A program made the translations under genes and the position numbers. A stretch of 44,106 nucleotides of DNA. Origin: Spirochaetes bacterium ADurb.Bin133 (lineage in GTDB: Bacteria > Spirochaetota > GWE2-31-10 > MWDO01). The stretch lies in the NCBI GenBank assembly GCA_002070605.1, contig MWDO01000003.1, positions 75,853 through 119,958 on the forward strand. Direction: 5' to 3'. Below the pieces are notes generated by a model, which saw nothing but the letters and a program-made list of their open reading frames with translations, had not been told where the DNA came from and did not search any database. This document shows, in pieces, positions 17,584-34,726 of the stretch (its first letter is position 1; each line of letters starts with the position of its first letter).

Positions 17584-17860
17584 TTAGTTAAATAGAAATT
17601 TTGACACATATGCGCCGCTTTTTGTTCTTAACGACGCAAGCCCCGATATGAGTATGTTTAGTATTTTAGCATATTCAAAACGGGAATTCCCGCTTTTATC
17701 GGGGCGCGACAATTGTCGTATAGAAATTGACACATATGGAGCTGCATACGCTCCTAGATAAAAAATTGACACATATGCGTCGCTGTGTTCTTCGATAGAA
17801 TTTGACACATATGGAGCTACATGCGACGCCGGCATATCCCCAAAAAAGTCGCCCGACTAT
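17584..17860 (-). repeat. Dispersed CATATG-rich intergenic element, copy 2
   Basis: It occupies about half of the 606-bp gap between the flavodoxin gene and MCP1; bases 17406-17580 hold no gene I can support. GACACATATG occurs at 17603, 17729, 17768 and 17804. Two units read ATGGAGCT-CAT-CG and the others ATGCGYCGCT. The palindrome GGGAATTCCC (17682-17691) and flanking bases match copy 1 in reverse. The element ends in a CCCCAAAAAA run that directly abuts the MCP1 promoter block. Confidence 0.7.
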
Positions 17861-17961: not shown

Positions 17962-18015
17962 ATGGAAAAAAGAGCGCGCAGCTCCGCATCTCCGGAAAAT
18001 GAGGAACGACTATGA
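17962..18015 (+). CDS. MCP1 leader peptide (17 aa), overlaps receptor start
   Basis: An AAGGAG ribosome-binding site and the block TTGACAAAA precede an ATG. The frame reads MEKRARSSASPENEERL and stops at TGA 18013-18015, which overlaps the receptor ATG at 18012 (ATGA). The same leader start (TTGACAAAAATGGAAAAAAG) precedes MCP2 and MCP6. Receptor translation is therefore probably coupled to the leader. There is no poly-C tract in this copy. Confidence 0.55.
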   Translation: MEKRARSSASPENEERL

Positions 18016-20160: not shown

Positions 20161-20188
20161 TTGAAAATTTTATAAAAAGATATATAAT
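20161..20188 (+). promoter_or_regulatory. MCP2 promoter
   Basis: TTGAAA, 16-bp spacer, TATAAT, preceded by GTCGCTCGATTATAAAAA. It is the closest of the copied receptor promoters to consensus. Confidence 0.7.
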
Positions 20189-20238
20189 CGGCGATAGTTT
20201 TTTTAAATTTAATCTTTTATTAAAAGGAGTTGACAAAA

Positions 20239-20319
20239 ATGGAAAAAAGTTGTATCATCTTCCCCCCCCCCCCCGATTTTTTTATCGCGCTGTTGCGCAA
20301 AGAAGATGCGCTAAATTAG
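20239..20319 (+). CDS. MCP2 leader ORF containing a 13-C tract
   Basis: AAAAGGAG, TTGACAAAA and ATG at 20239. The frame begins MEKSCIIFPPPP, then runs to TAG at 20317 in the sequence as given (26 aa). The tract at 20262-20274 sets the frame. With 14 C, the frame would stay open to TAA 20379-20381, just past the receptor ATG at 20374, allowing coupling. With 12 C it would stop near 20313. The first 24 bases of the ORF plus the tract are identical to the MCP6 leader. Confidence 0.55.
   Translation: MEKSCIIFPPPPDFFIALLRKEDALN
20262..20274 (+). repeat. Poly-C tract (13 C)
   Basis: A homopolymer inside the MCP2 leader ORF, long enough for slipped-strand change in an otherwise AT-rich sequence. 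Copy number here decides which leader frame is read. Confidence 0.85.
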
Positions 20320-20373
20320 GATACTCTTCTGTGAGAAAAGTAATATTAATATTATTGCAGGGAGTTGAAAGAA

Positions 20374-22518
20374 ATGGATAATTTAATGTATTCTTCAAAA
20401 ACTATAGAGAATAAAAAAAAAATTTCTGTAAAATTTTCTGTGAGAAAAAAACTACTTATCCTTTTTGGTTTGTTGCTTATGGTTACGATAGTTATCGAAG
20501 GTATTCTTGCAGCGCGGGTAGCTCGCAAGGCGGTTATCGAAACGGTAGAGATTAGTCTTATAAACAAGGCGACAGACACGGCGGAGATTATCAACGAGAG
20601 AATTAATGCGGTTTTTCAATTTCTTGAAGGCGTTGCTAGAAGAACGGAGATAGTCGATCCTGCTTTTTCGTTTGAAGAAAAAACGGTTTTTCTCAACAAA
20701 GAAGCGGAAAGTAATCCTTTGATTAAAGAACTATACATCGTAGATACAAGCGGCGCGCAGCATTATCCGGACGGCAAAAAAGAAAACTATTCAGAAGATG
20801 GATGGTTTATTGGAGCCATGAAAGGAAAACGGGTTGCAGAAGAGCCGTATAGCGATGAAACGCGCGAGGACGCAATGTCTATCACTTTTGCCATACCGGC
20901 GTACGATGCAAACAAAAAACTCATCGGAGTACTTGGCGTGGATTTTGACGCTCTATGGCTTTCAAAGCAAATTGAAGATATTGTGATCGCTCAAACGGGC
21001 TATTGTTATATTGTTGGACCTACCGGGAATACAATCGCCGACAAGGAAATTGAATTAGTGCTTACTCAATCAAACAATACCGAACTTGCAAAGGAAGATA
21101 ATACATATTCCAGTATCGCCGCGTTTGAAAAAAGAGCGTTAACGGAAGACAAGCCCGGCGTCGGTTATTTCTATTGGGGTAAAAGCCTTGAACATGGCGC
21201 TTTTGCAAAAATCGAAGCTGCAGGTTGGCCCGTAATTGCTTCAGCGCCTACCGAAGAGTTTATGGGGACGGTTCATGTTATGCGGTACGATATGCTAGTT
21301 ATCGGTATGATAATTTTGATAACGTCATTAATCGCAACCTTTTTTCTTGCTCGCGGTATAGTTCGTTCTATGCGCTCCGCCGTCGCTGCATTAAAGGACA
21401 TTGCCCACGGCGAAGGCGACCTAACCGTCCGCTTGTCTGTCCAAGGAAATGATGAAATTGGCGATATGTCTAGGTATTTTAATCAAACCATTGAAAAAAT
21501 CGGCGCTTCCATCAAATCGGTTGGACATAACGCCGGAATAATGCATGAAATTGGCGCTACTCTTTCTACGAATATGATTGAAACCGCTAGCGCTGTAAAC
21601 CAAATTACCGTAAATATCCAAGGCGTTAGACAGCAAGCTCTGAAACAGGCTGCAAGCGTCGACGAAACTGCCGCGACGATGGAAGAGATTATTAGCGCGA
21701 TAAAAAAGTTGAATAACAGCATAGAGAGTCAAGCGGCGAGCGTCGTTCAATCCTCCGCTTCGATTGAAGAGATGGCGGCGAATATCGCTTCCATTACTCA
21801 AACTCTTGGACAAAGCGACGGGGTCGTTCGCGATTTGGCAACCGCTACCGCCGACGGCAAAGAGACGCTCTACTCTTCAAATAGCGTTACCCAAAAGATA
21901 ATGGAACAGTCGAGCGGCTTACTTGAGGCGAGCGCCGTCATCCAAAACATAGCGAGTCAGACGAATCTCTTGGCGATGAACGCGGCGATTGAAGCGGCTC
22001 ATGCGGGAGAGAGCGGTAAAGGATTCGCCGTCGTCGCCGACGAGATCAGAAAACTTGCCGAGGAGTCTTCCGTTCAAGGAAAAGCGATAACTTCCACGCT
22101 TAAAAATTTTTCAATCGAGATTGAAACGCTCTCCAGCTCCTCCAAAATATTGGAAGAGAAGTTTAACGCAATTTATTTTTTAGCCGAAAAAGTTAAAGAG
22201 GTGAGCGCCAGCGTCATGGGGGCGATGACGGAGCAAGAACGCGGAAGCCGCGAGGTTTTGTCCGCCATAAAAAACATCAACGAAATAACGGCTGAAGTAA
22301 AAGACGGCTCTGCCGAGATGCTCAGAGGCGGGGAGCAAGTAGCGAAAGAGATACATAAACTTGACGAGCTAACCCGCGCGATTACCGATAGCATGAACGA
22401 GATGGCTTCGGGAGCGGAGCAGATGAACAAAGCCGCTCAGGAAATAAATGAGATTGCGCAGAAGAATGAAGAGAGTATCGACAACTTATCGCGAGAGGTG
22501 GGGAAATTTAAGATGTAG
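20374..22518 (+). CDS. Methyl-accepting chemotaxis receptor MCP2 (dCache_1 sensor)
   Basis: 714 residues from the ATG at 20374 (GGGAG 9 bp upstream; an in-frame TTG at 20365 sits too close to it). TM1 at about 22-45, a double-Cache domain (about 50-305) with [21 protein letters not shown] and [12 protein letters not shown]2 at about 309-330, HAMP ([21 protein letters not shown]) and the standard signalling hairpin. The sensor resembles MCP1 but carries an insertion (about residues 225-270), so ligand specificity may differ. The signalling half is nearly identical to MCP1. The tail ([10 protein letters not shown]) equals the orphan receptor tail at 24208-24276. Confidence 0.95.
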
Positions 22519-22573: not shown

Positions 22574-22633
22574 ATGCGCATTTGCGAGCGGGTTATAAGA
22601 GATATACCGGAAAAGCATACGCCTTTTCGTTAA
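22574..22633 (+). pseudogene. Truncated gene start with strong RBS (19 codons)
   Basis: AAGGAGG 8 bp before an ATG opens a frame MRICERVIRDIPEKHTPFR that stops at 22631 inside the 3' end of the opposing ATPase gene. Such a good initiation site just after MCP2, with nothing behind it, looks like the remaining start of a gene that was cut off when the ATPase segment arrived. The orphan receptor tail at 24208-24276 could be its other end. Confidence 0.4.
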
Positions 22634-23840
22634 TTGCTCTGATTTTGTCGCAAGTTTCTATCACAAGTCCGGCTTCAATTTTTAGTTTGAATTTTTCAAG
22701 TACGTCGAAGTTTTTTGTGGGACTTGTTGGGGCTATGCTTTTTTTTATTTCGATTGGATAAAGGCTTTTGCCTTCTATGTATAACAAATCGATTTCTTTT
22801 TTGTCGATGTCCCTGTAATAAAAAAGCTTGTCTTGGGGATTTTGATTGTGGGCATAAAAGTTTTTAATGATTTCACTTACAACAAAGGTTTCAAAAAAAG
22901 CTCCGTTCATTGCGCAAAACTCCAGCATCTCGGCGGTGGGCCACTTACAAAGATATGCGCAAAGTCCCGTGTCCATAAAATAAAGCTTTGGGGCTTTTAT
23001 TATTCTTTTTGACACATTTGTCATATAGGGCTGTAAAAGATATATTATTCCCGAGGTTTGCAAAATTGAAATCCAGCGTTTAATCGTCCGCGCATCCACT
23101 CCCGTGTTTCTGGCAATGTCATCATAATGAAGTTCCTGAGCTGTCCTGAGCGCGAGAATTGAAATAAAATTTCGGAATTGAAGCTCGCTGGAAGCGGCAA
23201 TAAGCCTCATAACATCACGCTCAATATAAGTGTTAATATACGATTTAAAATATACATCTCTTTCAGAAACACCGGTGCAAATATCGGGCATTCCACCCAT
23301 AAAAATATCCTGAAAAATTTCCGCCTTAGTTCGATACTTTCGTCCCTCTTTTCCTCGAAGGCGCAAAGATTCGATTTTAGGCTCGAAAAAAGGATTATCA
23401 TACCCGTATTTTTCCGCTTGAGAAAAAGAAGACATATCCACAACGCCGCAACGTCCGGCAAGGGATTCGGAAATTCCCTCTTGAAGTTCAAAACGACTTG
23501 AGCCTGTCAAAATATACATTAGTTCTCGCTCTTTGCTTTCTTTTATCCAGATCAGTCTCTGCTCATCGATTTTTATTTTAATTTCGTCTAAAATACTTGG
23601 CGCTTTTTGAATTTCGTCAATTATCAAAGGATAAGCGTGGCTTTCAAGGAAAAGCCTCGGATTGCTTTCAGCCAAAAGTCTGTCGTCTCTGTCGTCTAAA
23701 GTTACCTTTCGATATTTACTAGCAAAGAGCATCTCGATAGTTGTTGATTTTCCCACCTGCCTCGGTCCATACACAACAATGGCAGGAAAGGAGCGACTAA
23801 CTTTTAGAATAGTTTCTTCCACAGTTCTTTTCATATACAT
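22593..23840 (-). CDS. AAA-type ATPase with DUF4143 C-terminus
   Basis: 415 residues. Walker A is YGPRQVGKSTT at about 24-34, Walker B PLIIDEIQKAP at about 73-83, then the sensor ILTGSSRF. The C-terminal half (DIFMGGMPDI ... LYFMDTGLCAYLCKW ... YYRDIDKKEIDLLY) matches the DUF4143 nuclease-like region common in these stand-alone bacterial ATPases; their role is not settled. Met3 is an alternative start. It lies head-on against the receptor genes and is the only leftward gene in the cluster, so it is probably an insertion. An IS256-type remnant follows 156 bp upstream of its start. Confidence 0.88.
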   Translation of the reverse strand: MYMKRTVEETILKVSRSFPAIVVYGPRQVGKSTTIEMLFASKYRKVTLDDRDDRLLAESNPRLFLESHAYPLIIDEIQKAPSILDEIKIKIDEQRLIWIKESKERELMYILTGSSRFELQEGISESLAGRCGVVDMSSFSQAEKYGYDNPFFEPKIESLRLRGKEGRKYRTKAEIFQDIFMGGMPDICTGVSERDVYFKSYINTYIERDVMRLIAASSELQFRNFISILALRTAQELHYDDIARNTGVDARTIKRWISILQTSGIIYLLQPYMTNVSKRIIKAPKLYFMDTGLCAYLCKWPTAEMLEFCAMNGAFFETFVVSEIIKNFYAHNQNPQDKLFYYRDIDKKEIDLLYIEGKSLYPIEIKKSIAPTSPTKNFDVLEKFKLKIEAGLVIETCDKIRAINEKAYAFPVYLL

Positions 23841-24179: not shown

Positions 24180-24207
24180 AAAAACGTTCCCAACTGTCAA
24201 AGTCGGG

Positions 24208-24276
24208 AGATTGCGCAGAAGAATGAAGAGAGTATCGACAACTTGTCGCGAGAGGTGGGGAAATTTAAGATGTAAG
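24208..24276 (+). pseudogene. Orphan 3' end of a chemoreceptor gene
   Basis: Twenty-three codons ending at TAA encode [20 protein letters not shown] plus KM. They match the end of MCP2 almost base for base (24 kb copy has cttgtcg where MCP2 has cttatcg). There is no start or upstream receptor sequence, as the IS256 remnant lies 28 bp before it. This is the scar of a seventh receptor or of a recombination event between receptors. Confidence 0.85.
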
Positions 24277-26500: not shown

Positions 26501-26647
26501 CGTCAGTTTTTTGGGGAATAAAAAATATTTGTTCTATATGCGTCTAAATTTTTGTCGGGGAACACAGCGGCGTATAGCTCCATATGTGTCATTTTTCTCT
26601 TAATACCATATGTGTCATTTTATTTTCCTGCCCCCAAAAAACTGACG
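26501..26647. mobile_element. MITE-like element with 16-bp perfect inverted ends (CATATG family, copy 3)
   Basis: CGTCAGTTTTTTGGGG at 26501-26516 is the exact inverse of 26632-26647. Between them are CATATG units 26 bp apart (26581, 26607) and a degenerate TATATG. The inside matches copy 1 (7369-7503) in reverse. The flanks show a near-direct repeat (CGCCCGAACTA before, CGCCCCGAACTA after), suggesting a target duplication in the MCP4 promoter block. The element has no coding capacity of its own. Confidence 0.65.
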
Positions 26648-26757: not shown

Positions 26758-26778
26758 ATGGGGAAATTATGGCTTTAA
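26758..26778 (+). CDS. MCP4 leader peptide (6 aa), overlaps receptor start
   Basis: CTTGACAAAGATG resembles the TTGACAAAAATG leader start of the other receptors. The frame MGKLWL ends at TAA 26776-26778, so it spans the receptor ATG at 26769. It is shorter and lacks a clear ribosome-binding site, so it may be a decayed copy. Confidence 0.35.
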
Positions 26779-28884: not shown

Positions 28885-30801
28885 ATGACGAAAACGGCTT
28901 TAACTAATCAAAAATCTTCGTTTAGACCGTCCTTTAAAATTAAAACTCAGTTTACCGTTCAAGCGATTTTTAGTATTTTGTTGTTGCTTGCGTTGTTGTT
29001 TACCCTGTTTGAGGCGCGGACGCGTAAGGAGAGGCTTATCAATGCGGAGGAACAAAAATATTTTTCCATGCTGCTTGCCGATGAGTTTAGGCAAACGTCG
29101 CAGGATTTGACCCGTACTTGCCGAGTTTACGTTGCCACCGGCGGCGATATGCGGTATTGGGATGAGTATTGGAATATTGTCGCATGGCGAAAGGGAGATA
29201 TTCCTAGACCGCAAACGGTGAACGCTAATTTATATCCGGGAAGAACTGTCGATCAGCAGGTTTTAATGAAAGAACTTGGATATACGGAGCGCGAATTATC
29301 GCTCCTTAAACAGGCGATAGATTTTTCAAACAAACTAATTGCCGTTGAAGATCAGGCGATGCGTTGCGTGAAAGAAAGGCGTTTTGTATCCGGTCCCTGC
29401 GCAATGCGCGGCGATGAGACGCTATTGGAATTTGCTATTCGCATTGTTAACGACGAAGCCTATCATGCCGAGGTTGAAAAAATTATGGGACCGGTCGGCG
29501 CTTTTGAGCGCGAACTTGACGAGCGTATAACGTTGACTGCGCAAAACGAAAACCGCAAGATGGAGATTGTCCTGCGTATGGCGATGGGCTTTACCATCGT
29601 TGTAATTATATCGGTCGCGTTTTTTGTCTTCTTTTTAAGCAGATCGGTTATAAATCCGATTTTGAAAATATCTGAAGTATTTACCTTTCTCGCGAGCGGC
29701 GACTTGACTCGTTCCTTGCATATTGTTCAGGAAAATGAAATTGGCAATATGGCGCTAGACTTTAACGAAATGCTTGAAAGCGTTAAGCGGCTTATTAGGG
29801 CTATTCAAAAAAACGCCGAATTCTTGTCGGAGATTGGACAAAATCTCTCGTCAAATATGATCGAAACCGCCGGCGCGGTAAACCAAATTAACGTAAATAT
29901 CCAGGGCGTTAAACGGCAGGCGCAGACGCAGGCTACAAGCGTTAGCGAAACTGCCGCGACGATGGAAGAGATTATTAGCGCGATCAAAAAGCTGAATAGC
30001 GGCATAGAGAGTCAATCTGCGAGCGTCGTCCAATCTTCCGCTTCGATCGAAGAGATGGTAGCGAATATCGCCTCTATTACTCAAACGCTCGGCAAAAGCG
30101 ACGTAGTTGTCCGCGATTTGGCGAAGGCTACCGCCGACGGCAAAGAGACGCTCTACTCTTCAAATAATATTACCCAAAAAATAGCCGAACAGTCGGGCGG
30201 TTTGCTTGAAGCAAGCGACGTCATCCAAAACATAGCGAGCCAGACGAATCTCTTGGCGATGAACGCGGCGATCGAAGCGGCTCATGCCGGCGAGTACGGG
30301 AAAGGCTTTGCCGTCGTTGCCGACGAAATCAGAAAGCTGGCGGAAGAGTCGAGCGCTCAAGGGAAAACGATAACTTCCACGCTTAAAAATTTTTCAATCG
30401 AGATTGAGACGCTCTCCGGTTCTTCCAAAGTACTGGAAGAGAAGTTTAACGCGATTTATTTACTCGCCGAACAAGTTAAAGAGATGAGCGCCAGCGTTAT
30501 GAGAGCGATGATGGAGCAAGAACGCGGAAGCCGCGAAGTTTTGTCCGCTATAAAAAATATTAACGAAGTAACGGCGGAAGTAAGAGACGGATCGAAGGAG
30601 ATGCTTAAAGGCGGCGAGCAGGCGGCGAAAGAGATGCATAAACTGGACGGTCTAACCCGCGCGATTACCGACAGCATGAACGAGATGGCTTCGGGAGCGG
30701 CGCAGGTAAATCAAGCCGCGCAGGAGGCGAATAAGATTACGCAAAAAAATGAGGAGAGTATTGAAAACTTGTCGATAGAGGTCGGGAAGTTTAAAGTATA
30801 G
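28885..30801 (+). CDS. Methyl-accepting chemotaxis receptor MCP5 (helical periplasmic sensor)
   Basis: 638 residues with a GGAG ribosome-binding site. TM1 is at about 25-44. A helical periplasmic domain (about 50-215) contains FRQTSQDLTRTCRVYVATGG and RYWDEYWNIVAWRKGDIPRP. TM2 is at about 230-255, followed by HAMP and the shared signalling hairpin. The sensor differs from Cache types; helix content suggests a four-helix-type bundle, no named family assigned. The sensor is nearly identical in DNA and protein to MCP6 (one residue difference over about 195). The 169-bp upstream gap has no leader ORF of the type seen at MCP1, MCP2 and MCP6, so this copy may be expressed constitutively. Confidence 0.93.
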   Translation: MTKTALTNQKSSFRPSFKIKTQFTVQAIFSILLLLALLFTLFEARTRKERLINAEEQKYFSMLLADEFRQTSQDLTRTCRVYVATGGDMRYWDEYWNIVAWRKGDIPRPQTVNANLYPGRTVDQQVLMKELGYTERELSLLKQAIDFSNKLIAVEDQAMRCVKERRFVSGPCAMRGDETLLEFAIRIVNDEAYHAEVEKIMGPVGAFERELDERITLTAQNENRKMEIVLRMAMGFTIVVIISVAFFVFFLSRSVINPILKISEVFTFLASGDLTRSLHIVQENEIGNMALDFNEMLESVKRLIRAIQKNAEFLSEIGQNLSSNMIETAGAVNQINVNIQGVKRQAQTQATSVSETAATMEEIISAIKKLNSGIESQSASVVQSSASIEEMVANIASITQTLGKSDVVVRDLAKATADGKETLYSSNNITQKIAEQSGGLLEASDVIQNIASQTNLLAMNAAIEAAHAGEYGKGFAVVADEIRKLAEESSAQGKTITSTLKNFSIEIETLSGSSKVLEEKFNAIYLLAEQVKEMSASVMRAMMEQERGSREVLSAIKNINEVTAEVRDGSKEMLKGGEQAAKEMHKLDGLTRAITDSMNEMASGAAQVNQAAQEANKITQKNEESIENLSIEVGKFKV

Positions 30802-30865: not shown

Positions 30866-30894
30866 TTGCAAAATTTTATAAAAAGCTGCATTAT
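30866..30894 (+). promoter_or_regulatory. MCP6 promoter
   Basis: TTGCAA, 17-bp spacer, CATTAT, preceded by CAATTATAAAAAAAG. The spacer matches those of MCP1, MCP2 and MCP4. Confidence 0.6.
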
Positions 30895-30949
30895 AAGCTG
30901 GTATATTGTTTTTTTTTAGTAAATTTTTATTAAAAAGGAGTTGACAAAA

Positions 30950-31009
30950 ATGGAAAAAAGTTGTATCATCTTCCCCCCCCCCCCCGAAAAAAATGAGACC
31001 GTCTTTTAA
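30950..31009 (+). CDS. MCP6 leader ORF with a 13-C tract that gates receptor frame
   Basis: AAAAAGGAG, TTGACAAAA and ATG 30950. The frame reads MEKSCIIFPPPP, then EKNETVF and TAA at 31007. It overlaps the receptor ATG at 30993 in a different frame. Removing one C puts the leader in frame with the receptor (MEKSCIIFPPPPKK joined to MRPSF). Adding one C gives an early TGA. The receptor ATG lacks any ribosome-binding site, so the leader supplies initiation. Confidence 0.6.
   Translation: MEKSCIIFPPPPEKNETVF
30973..30985 (+). repeat. Poly-C tract (13 C)
   Basis: A homopolymer in the MCP6 leader, the same length and context as at 20262-20274. Tract length modulo 3 sets whether leader and receptor are one frame. 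Confidence 0.85.
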
Positions 31010-32873
31010 GATTAAAACGCAGTTTACCGTTCAAGCGATTTTTAGTATTTTGTTGTTGCTTGCGTTATTGTTTACCCTGTTTGAGGCGCGGACGCGTAAG
31101 GAGAGGCTTATCAATGCGGAGGAACAAAAATATTTTTCCATGCTGCTTGCCGATGAGTTTAGGCAAACGTCGCAGGATTTGACCCGTACTTGCCGAGTTT
31201 ACGTTGCCACCGGCGGCGATATGCGGTATTGGGATGAGTATTGGAATATTGTCGCATGGCGAAAGGGAGATATTCCTAGACCGCAAACGGTGAACGCTAA
31301 TTTATATCCGGGAAGAACTGTCGATCAGCAGGTTTTAATGAAAGAACTTGGATATACGGAGCGCGAATTATCGCTCCTTAAACAGGCGATAGATTTTTCA
31401 AACAAACTAATTGCCGTTGAAGATCAGGCGATGCGTTGCGTGAAAGAAGGGCGTTTTGTATCCGGTCCCTGCGCGATGCGCGGCGACGAGACGCTATTGG
31501 AATTTGCTATTCGTATTGTCAACGACGAAGCCTATCATGCCGAAGTTGAAAAGATTATGGGACCGGTCGGCGTTTTTGAGCGCGAACTTGACGAGCGCGT
31601 AACGTTGACTACGCAAAACGAAAGCCGCAGGATGGATATTTCTCAAAGCGCGGCGACGGGCTTTGCTATCGTTGTAATCATATCGGTCGCGTTTTTTGTC
31701 TTCTTTTTAAGCAGATCGGTTATAAATCCGATTTTAAAAACGTCTGAAGTATTTACCGTTCTTGCAAGCGGCGACTTAACATATTCATTGCGCGTTGGGC
31801 AAAACAACGAAATTGGCGGCATGGCGCGAAACTTTAACGAAATGCTTGAAAGCGTTAAGCGGCTTATTAGGGCTATTCAAAAAAACGCCGAATTCTCGTC
31901 GGAGATTGGACAAAATCTCTCGTCAAATATGACCGAAACTGCCAGCGCTATAAACCAAATTACCGTAAATATCCAGGACGTTAAACAGCGGGCGCTGAAG
32001 CAGGCTACAAGCGTTAGCGAAACCGCCGCTACGATGGAAGTGATTATTAATGCAATAAAACAGCTGAACGACAGCATAGAGAGTCAATCTGCGAGCGTTG
32101 TTCAATCTTCCGCCTCGATTGAAGAGATGGCGGCGAATATAGCCTCTATTACTCAAACTCTCGGCAAAAGCGACGTAGTTGTCCGCGATTTGGCGACGGC
32201 TACCTTCGACGGTAAAGAGACGCTCTACTCTTCAAATAACATTACCCAAAAAATAATGGAACAGTCGAGCGGCTTACTTGAAGCAAGCGACGTTATCCAA
32301 AACATAGCGAGCCAGACAAATCTCCTGGCGATGAACGCGGCGATCGAAGCGGCTCATGCCGGCGAGTACGGGAAAGGCTTTGCCGTCGTCGCCGACGAAA
32401 TAAGAAAACTTGCCGAGGAGTCGAGCGCTCAAGGGAAAAAGATAACTTCCACGCTTAAAAATTTTTCAATCGAGATTGAGACGCTCTCCGGCTCCTCCAA
32501 AGTACTGGAAGAGAAGTTTAACGCAATTTATTCCCTCGCCGAACAAGTTAAAGATGTGAGCGCCAGCGTTATGAGAGCGATGACGGAGCAAGAACGCGGA
32601 AGCCGCGAGGTTTTGTCCTCCATAAAAAATATCAACGAAATAACGGCGGAAGTAAAATACGGCTCTGAAGATATGCTCAGAGGAGGCGAGCAGGCGGCGG
32701 CAGAGATGCATAAACTTGACGACCTAACCCGCGCGATTACCGACAGCATGAACGAGATGGCTTCGGGAGCGGCGCAGGTAAACCAAGCCGCTCAGGAGGT
32801 AAACAAGATTACGCAAAAGAATGAGGAGAGTATTGAAAACTTGTCGAGAGAGGTGGGGAAGTTTAAAGTATAG
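30993..32873 (+). CDS. Methyl-accepting chemotaxis receptor MCP6 (helical sensor, phase-variable start)
   Basis: 626 residues from ATG 30993, which directly follows CCCCCGAAAAAA and has no ribosome-binding site. Sensor, TM2, HAMP and signalling hairpin are as in MCP5. The sensor is almost identical to MCP5, but HAMP (LTYSLRVGQNNEIGGM) and parts of the signalling domain have diverged and partly resemble MCP4, suggesting patchwork gene conversion. In a 12-C state the protein would begin at 30950 with 14 extra residues. It is the last receptor, convergent with citrate synthase after a 17-bp gap. Confidence 0.92.
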   Translation: MRPSFKIKTQFTVQAIFSILLLLALLFTLFEARTRKERLINAEEQKYFSMLLADEFRQTSQDLTRTCRVYVATGGDMRYWDEYWNIVAWRKGDIPRPQTVNANLYPGRTVDQQVLMKELGYTERELSLLKQAIDFSNKLIAVEDQAMRCVKEGRFVSGPCAMRGDETLLEFAIRIVNDEAYHAEVEKIMGPVGVFERELDERVTLTTQNESRRMDISQSAATGFAIVVIISVAFFVFFLSRSVINPILKTSEVFTVLASGDLTYSLRVGQNNEIGGMARNFNEMLESVKRLIRAIQKNAEFSSEIGQNLSSNMTETASAINQITVNIQDVKQRALKQATSVSETAATMEVIINAIKQLNDSIESQSASVVQSSASIEEMAANIASITQTLGKSDVVVRDLATATFDGKETLYSSNNITQKIMEQSSGLLEASDVIQNIASQTNLLAMNAAIEAAHAGEYGKGFAVVADEIRKLAEESSAQGKKITSTLKNFSIEIETLSGSSKVLEEKFNAIYSLAEQVKDVSASVMRAMTEQERGSREVLSSIKNINEITAEVKYGSEDMLRGGEQAAAEMHKLDDLTRAITDSMNEMASGAAQVNQAAQEVNKITQKNEESIENLSREVGKFKV

Positions 32874-34396: not shown

Positions 34397-34640
34397 TCGT
34401 CAGTTTTTTTGGAATGGGGGAATAAATTATCGCATATGCGTCGCGTCGATAACGCGCGGCAATTGCGCATAAAAATTCGACGCATATGCGTTAATTTTGC
34501 TTTTAACGCCATATGTGTCAATTTGTTCTATTTTCTAAAGCGCTGAAGTTACCTTATCTGAAAATATTTGTCCCATATGCGTCGATTTATTCTTTACATC
34601 ATATGTGTCAATTTATTTTTAATGCCATATGCGTCAATTT
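34397..34640. repeat. Dispersed CATATG-rich intergenic element, copy 4
   Basis: It lies in the 492-bp gap between citrate synthase and proA and opens with CGTCAGTTTTTTTGG like the inverted end of copy 3. CATATG occurs at 34433, 34483, 34510, 34574, 34600 and 34626, the last three exactly 26 bp apart. The local unit is CATATGYGTCAATTTATT. A second end (CTGACG) is not found, so this copy seems expanded or broken. Confidence 0.65.
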
Positions 34641-34726
34641 TCAAAAATTTTGGGATTTCCAATTATGGACTTGACATAAATATCAAATTTGTTTAAAGTC
34701 GAAATAATGAAACGCGGAGATTATTT

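Follow-up and report, generated by a model that had tools for sequence, protein, structure and literature searches.

A poly-C cassette ahead of spirochaete chemoreceptor genes, and how its tract length may tune MCP2

Phase variation is mostly known from surface antigens and restriction systems. Contingency loci with homopolymeric tracts, which switch genes by frameshifting, are found in Neisseria, Campylobacter and Helicobacter. Here, we describe a poly-C tract that lies within a short leader ORF ahead of the chemoreceptor gene MCP2 of a spirochaete. Several characterized systems are comparable. In Treponema pallidum, the tprL gene has a poly-G between the -10 element and the transcription start, and promoter activity depends on how long this poly-G is (PMC7864442). 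A poly-G of variable length also occurs in the T. pallidum chemoreceptor gene mcp1 (TP0040) (PMC10013896). In H. pylori, the small RNA RepG uses a C/U-rich loop to bind a G-repeat in the mRNA leader of the chemoreceptor gene tlpB (PMC8295292). No earlier description of such a chemoreceptor cassette was found in the open-access papers to which the search was confined. A treponeme comparison that counts homopolymeric tracts draws no link to MCPs in the part of that publication covered here.

The window is a stretch of 44,106 nucleotides from Spirochaetes bacterium ADurb.Bin133 (contig MWDO01000003.1), an organism which, by its kinship labels, belongs to the same phylum as the treponemes and to a different order. 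All features are on the forward strand unless noted otherwise. MCP2 (20374..22518, ATG at 20374-20376) codes for a chemoreceptor with the Pfam domains dCache_1, HAMP and MCPsignal. The cassette is found in the interval between the end of the MCP1 gene (20093) and the MCP2 start (20374). It begins with a promoter-like pair, P1 (TTGAAA-16-TATAAT, 20161..20188, 11/12 match); the block TTG(C/A)AAATTTTATAAAA is repeated upstream of MCP1, MCP2, MCP4 and MCP6. The leader has a Shine-Dalgarno sequence (AGGAG, 20225..20229) 9 nt upstream of its ATG (20239-20241). This ATG is located in the spacer of a second promoter-like pair, P2 (TTGACA-17-TATCAT, 20230..20258, 11/12 match), which had been overlooked in the preliminary description. 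P2 ends 3 nt upstream of a homopolymeric C13 tract (20262..20274). In the assembled 13-C state, the leader ORF (20239..20319) codes for MEKSCIIFPPPPDFFIALLRKEDALN; its start is homologous to the N-terminus of a paralog, L054:1393. As had been proposed, the leaders of MCP2 and MCP6 are identical through the 13-C tract (the shared stretch is 53 bases long, the final C of the tract included), and MCP2 has a ribosome-binding site of its own (GGGAG, 20360..20364), 9 nt upstream of its ATG.

Reading the leader in each tract state gives three different ends. With 13 C (also 10 or 16), the leader stops at a TAG that ends at 20319. With 12 C (also 9 or 15), it stops at a TAA (20312..20314), so that the expected stop was correct and its end is at 20314 rather than near 20313. 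With 14 C (also 8, 11 or 17), the frame stays open past the receptor ATG to a TAA at 20379-20381, and the leader overlaps the MCP2 start by 8 bases (ATGGATAA); in the assembled 13-C state there is no overlap. These stop positions, including the stop-start overlap, agree with the preliminary description. None of the three tract frames opens into MCP2, so that a fusion of leader and MCP2 is impossible.

All tract lengths given here are those of the assemblies, in which long homopolymers are prone to error. The genome-wide counts for this organism come from pattern searches. They revealed only three tracts of C>=10 in the 2.99-Mb genome, two of which are those of MCP2 and MCP6. With C9 expected 0.06 times per window, a homopolymer at the MCP2 gene start is far above chance. 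The overlap itself is less striking. Among dinucleotide shuffles of the interval, 12% have some tract state that reads through to the ATG, and in 5% an out-of-frame stop lies <=12 nt from the ATG; the overlap alone is thus weak evidence. The third tract, a G10, is found together with a G9 inside a single 510-codon ORF (L044:2353-3882, reverse strand), which is another possible phase-variable gene.

Related leaders occur in the same organism. The sister cassette ahead of MCP6 (30866..30985) consists of the promoter-like block, a Shine-Dalgarno sequence, an ATG at 30950 and a C13 tract at 30973-30985. There, 12 or 15 C fuse the leader to the receptor, and the assembled 13 C represent the non-fused state. 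MCP1 is preceded by a tract-less leader (17962..18015, MEKRARSSASPENEERL), the stop of which overlaps the MCP1 ATG (ATGA). In the paralog L054:1393, which is on another contig and has the same AGGAG...TTGACAAAAATGGAAAAAAA block and five C's, the block opens a continuous receptor (MEKNNAISSPDEPGSPSRYRLSISRRIILFF...), with the start block serving as N-terminus (MEKNNAISSPDEPG...). MCP1 also has this block. Both tract-less paralogs lack the P2 -10 element. That translation really begins at the leader is supported by this use of the same start block in a tract-less paralog and by the fused class of relatives described below.

Several further observations were made on the MCP genes of the window. 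MCP4, whose likely start is at 26769, has a mini leader (MGKLWL, 26758-26778) with a stop that overlaps this start. The first 300 nt of MCP5 (28924-29223) and the corresponding region of MCP6 (30996-31295) are 99% identical, and in MCP6 the poly-C leader replaces the MCP5-type N-terminus. This reflects a recent duplication or conversion in which the start was exchanged. A 68-nt copy of the MCP2 3' end (22450-22517), 99% identical, is found at 24207-24274, immediately ahead of MCP3. A DUF4143 ATPase gene (22593-23840, reverse strand) separates the two copies, which are the trace of a duplication or insertion. A short interspersed repeat (core TTGACACATATG / CATATGTGTCAA) occurs in the window at 17601-17830, 26580-26626 and 34483-34645 and on many other contigs. 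It is found in both orientations, clustered, mostly intergenic and often close to MCP genes.

A phylum-wide pattern search for the same block detected it in other genomes, among them Treponema pedis T3552B (G339) and T. medium ATCC 700293 (G368; names according to Table 1 of PMC8049484) and relatives of these. The pattern search found no cassette in G058, which has the same genus label as G368 and is putatively T. pallidum Nichols. In the treponeme genomes with the block, nearly all TTGAC...C9 loci that were found are located upstream of MCP genes, and most relatives of the cassette retain the leader Shine-Dalgarno sequence (AGGA or GGAG). The leader is absent from the eight remaining genomes of the order, none of the poly-C tracts of same-family genomes is near an MCP gene, and the viral contigs gave no match. 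The one named MCP2 relative that was found (L074, from a Treponema MAG) is devoid of the poly-C cassette and was set aside. In a genome of the same genus as the window's organism (G002), a C10 context, ACTTCCGACGTCATACCCCCCCCCC, occurs twice (L077 and L079), at or near contig ends; this is either a dispersed element or an assembly edge.

The loci fall into two classes. In the fused class, the leader frame runs on into the gene in one of the tract states. This class comprises MCP6, L141, L142, L145, L146, L148, L149, L151, L152, L155, L156, L157, L163, L165 and L169, the last of which is not an MCP; about a dozen independent Treponema loci are included. Several of these have their next methionine only beyond the first membrane helix, and because they lack another start before this helix, the leader ATG is taken to be the one used in the fused-class relatives. 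In the separate class (MCP2, L143, L144, L150, L153, L154, L158, L160, L161, L162 and L167), the receptor start is downstream of the leader and mostly has its own Shine-Dalgarno sequence. Whatever the tract state, the leaders of L144, L150, L153, L154 and L162 end 41-195 nt ahead of the receptor, and a leader that overlaps a separate receptor start is found only in MCP2 and L160. ATGA overlaps in one tract state occur in L142, L149, L152, L155, L160 and L163; they were not counted in favour of coupling, given that start codons often lie in an ATGA and that the intervals are short. Pairs of loci from sister species differ in tract length: L150 and L153 have 15 and 16 C with flanks that are 97-98% identical, and L144 and L154 have 16 and 14 C with flanks that are 90-93% identical. 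Such differences between near-identical loci may be taken as an indirect sign of tract instability. Some receptor frames are damaged apart from the poly-C: that of L158 ends early, the start region of L159 is out of frame, and the frame of L147 ends after 289 codons.

It had been proposed that the MCP2 switch works by translational coupling, a mode different from that of MCP6. At MCP2 itself, coupling is plausible, because the Shine-Dalgarno sequence is predicted to be buried in a hairpin (20323..20365, with 20323-20327 and 20329-20332 paired with 20357-20365) which would be traversed by the 14-C leader alone; the 12-C and 13-C leaders end upstream of it. The predicted unpaired probability of this site is 0.04-0.07, and values as low were obtained in 12/300 and 3/100 shuffles. 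The Shine-Dalgarno sequence of the leaderless control receptor MCP5 is similarly buried (1/100 shuffles), the predicted hairpin changes in longer folds, and a ribosome that terminates at the 13-C stop could partly open it (modelled unpaired probability of the Shine-Dalgarno sequence 0.64). Folding of the whole leader RNA was no better than that of shuffles, and general burial of the Shine-Dalgarno sequence was not found in the separate-start relatives. Most of these have leaders that end well short of the receptor, and coupling is therefore not the rule of the family. As to the difference from MCP6, it holds that no tract state fuses MCP2; the transcriptional alternative raised by the promoter-like P2 had not been considered.

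Our preferred reading is that MCP2 carries a copy of a conserved chemoreceptor phase-variation cassette that acts by state-dependent coupling. We give this model as a whole a probability of about 0.4. The cassette is ordered as upstream promoter, Shine-Dalgarno sequence, ATG, A-rich codons and poly-C. Slippage in the tract, the length of which presumably varies in this organism, would shift the frame in which leader ribosomes continue. With 12 or 13 C, they would stop ahead of the hairpin that hides the MCP2 Shine-Dalgarno sequence, so that MCP2 would be poorly translated. With 14 (11, 17) C, they would pass the hairpin and terminate at the MCP2 start codon, and MCP2 would thus be translated by coupling. 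MCP2 would therefore be tuned up and down, unlike MCP6, which would be either fused or unfused, and the assembled 13 C would represent the low state for MCP2 and the non-fused state for MCP6. The fixed ATGA overlap between leader and receptor at MCP1 would speak for coupling. The model leaves P2 unexplained.

Transcriptional control and a vestigial tract are serious rivals. According to the former, P2 is a real promoter the start site of which is covered by the tract, the efficiency of initiation depends on tract length as in the tpr genes, MCP2 is translated from its own Shine-Dalgarno sequence, and the leader ATG is irrelevant at MCP2. For a sample free of search bias, every C>=9 tract of two genomes was collected (n=55). 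All 15 MCP-upstream tracts among them are preceded by TTGACA (once TTGACT) and, at a spacing of 16-17 nt, by a TATAAT-like hexamer of the form TANNNT whose end is 0-3 nt from the tract (in L163, from a tract interrupted by one A), and so are 4 of the 40 other tracts (Fisher p about 3e-10, a value that overstates independence as the loci share ancestry). The hexamer spacing is fixed while the offset of the ATG shifts (5, 8, 9, 11) and the codon phase of the -10 differs among loci, which argues for conservation at the DNA level. Thus viewed, the conserved hexamers resemble a promoter whose start site is at the tract, for which the tpr poly-G between -10 and start is a precedent. That both tract-less paralogs are without the -10 points in the same direction. 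The strongest support comes from L158 and L161, separate-start loci that keep P2 and the tract but have neither a Shine-Dalgarno sequence nor a usable ATG in the spacer. A weak trend is that the -10 is perfect in 5/10 separate-start and 1/12 fused loci (p=0.056, from hand-made class counts). Yet fused-class receptors without an internal start also keep P2, although they could not be made from P2 transcripts, and L145 and L147 have tract and leader without P2. The MCP2 -10 is itself imperfect and 3 nt away from the tract, and P2 may merely travel with the copied cassette. We place this explanation second for MCP2, behind coupling, and consider it rather unlikely. As for other signals, P1 is strong in some relatives and not above chance in others, the leader contains no intrinsic terminator, and a sigma-28 reading of the upstream region, judged by eye, was dropped, as it is not common to the sister loci.

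The third place goes to a vestigial tract, which we regard as less likely still. MCP2 would then be decoupled and expressed from its own site at any tract length, after an ancestral leader-fused receptor (in the 14-C frame) had gained a second start by duplication or insertion between 13-nt direct repeats. Such repeats exist: TTCTGTGAGAAAA is found at 20327..20339, coding for SVRK in the 14-C leader frame, and again at 20436..20448, coding for SVRK in the MCP2 frame. The copies are 109 nt apart, and a shared word of this length arose in 0.08% of shuffles. The 14-C frame reads SVRKVILIL, resembling SVRKKLLIL in MCP2 (5/400 shuffles), a likeness that the earlier account had missed, and the inner GGAGTTGAAAGAAATGGA is similar to the leader block GGAGTTGACAAAAATGGA. 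Against a decayed cassette stand a C13 and 53 bases that are identical to MCP6 and have been kept or recently recopied, and an intact P1, Shine-Dalgarno sequence and ATG. By analogy to RepG, a trans-acting G-rich small RNA might bind the poly-C of the mRNA leader, since in both cases the mRNA leader of a chemoreceptor gene contains a homopolymer as target (PMC8295292). This is highly improbable: G>=10 is absent from the genome except for the complements of the three C tracts.

A second class of tracts was noticed, in which a poly-G (12-18) is located inside the spacer between -35 and -10 (TTGACA-Gn-TATAAT, often 16-20 nt apart). Such loci include L174, L185, L188, L191, L193, L197, L203 and L215 (T. 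pedis G339; G353) and often precede small lipoprotein-like genes; 17/46 G tracts score >=10/12. By analogy, this class looks like spacer switching of the porA/tp0126 type.

On balance, we lean towards a composite cassette, with Shine-Dalgarno sequence, start codon, sigma-70-type promoter and poly-C superimposed in about 50 bases, that is shared across spirochaete lineages. It would render as many as about a dozen chemoreceptors per genome independently phase-variable; the mode would be frame fusion at some loci and, at others such as MCP2, modulation of a receptor with a separate start. If so, chemotactic preference would be a combinatorial bet-hedging trait. The data suggest that spirochaetes with the cassette randomly turn single chemical sensors up or down; with its repeated placement before chemoreceptors in treponemes and in a distant spirochaete, cells of one clone would differ randomly in what they swim towards. 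The loci form a natural series (fused, coupled and separate; with and without leader Shine-Dalgarno sequence; with and without P2) for separating translational from transcriptional effects of the tract.

Among known systems, contingency loci share with MCP6 and the fused-class relatives a long mononucleotide tract just inside the start, where every third tract length yields the complete product. They differ from MCP2, where no length fuses and only the stop of the leader peptide changes, and the genes are chemoreceptors. The 14-C state of MCP2 resembles translationally coupled pairs in its stop-start overlap and predicted buried downstream Shine-Dalgarno sequence, but the overlap exists in one tract state only (8, 11, 14, 17 C). 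As in tlpB, which is controlled by a variable repeat, a homopolymer is found in a chemoreceptor mRNA leader; the MCP2 tract, however, is inside a translated leader. T. pallidum mcp1 likewise combines homopolymer length variation with a treponemal MCP gene, but there it is the C-terminus that changes, the tract being located close to the 3' end. The poly-G promoters of T. pallidum tpr and tp0126 are also spirochaetal and also have a homopolymer in a promoter or promoter-like region, and at the cassette both hexamers and tract position are conserved. The tpr genes code for outer-membrane proteins, whereas the cassette has poly-C on the coding strand, overlaps a leader ORF and precedes chemoreceptors.
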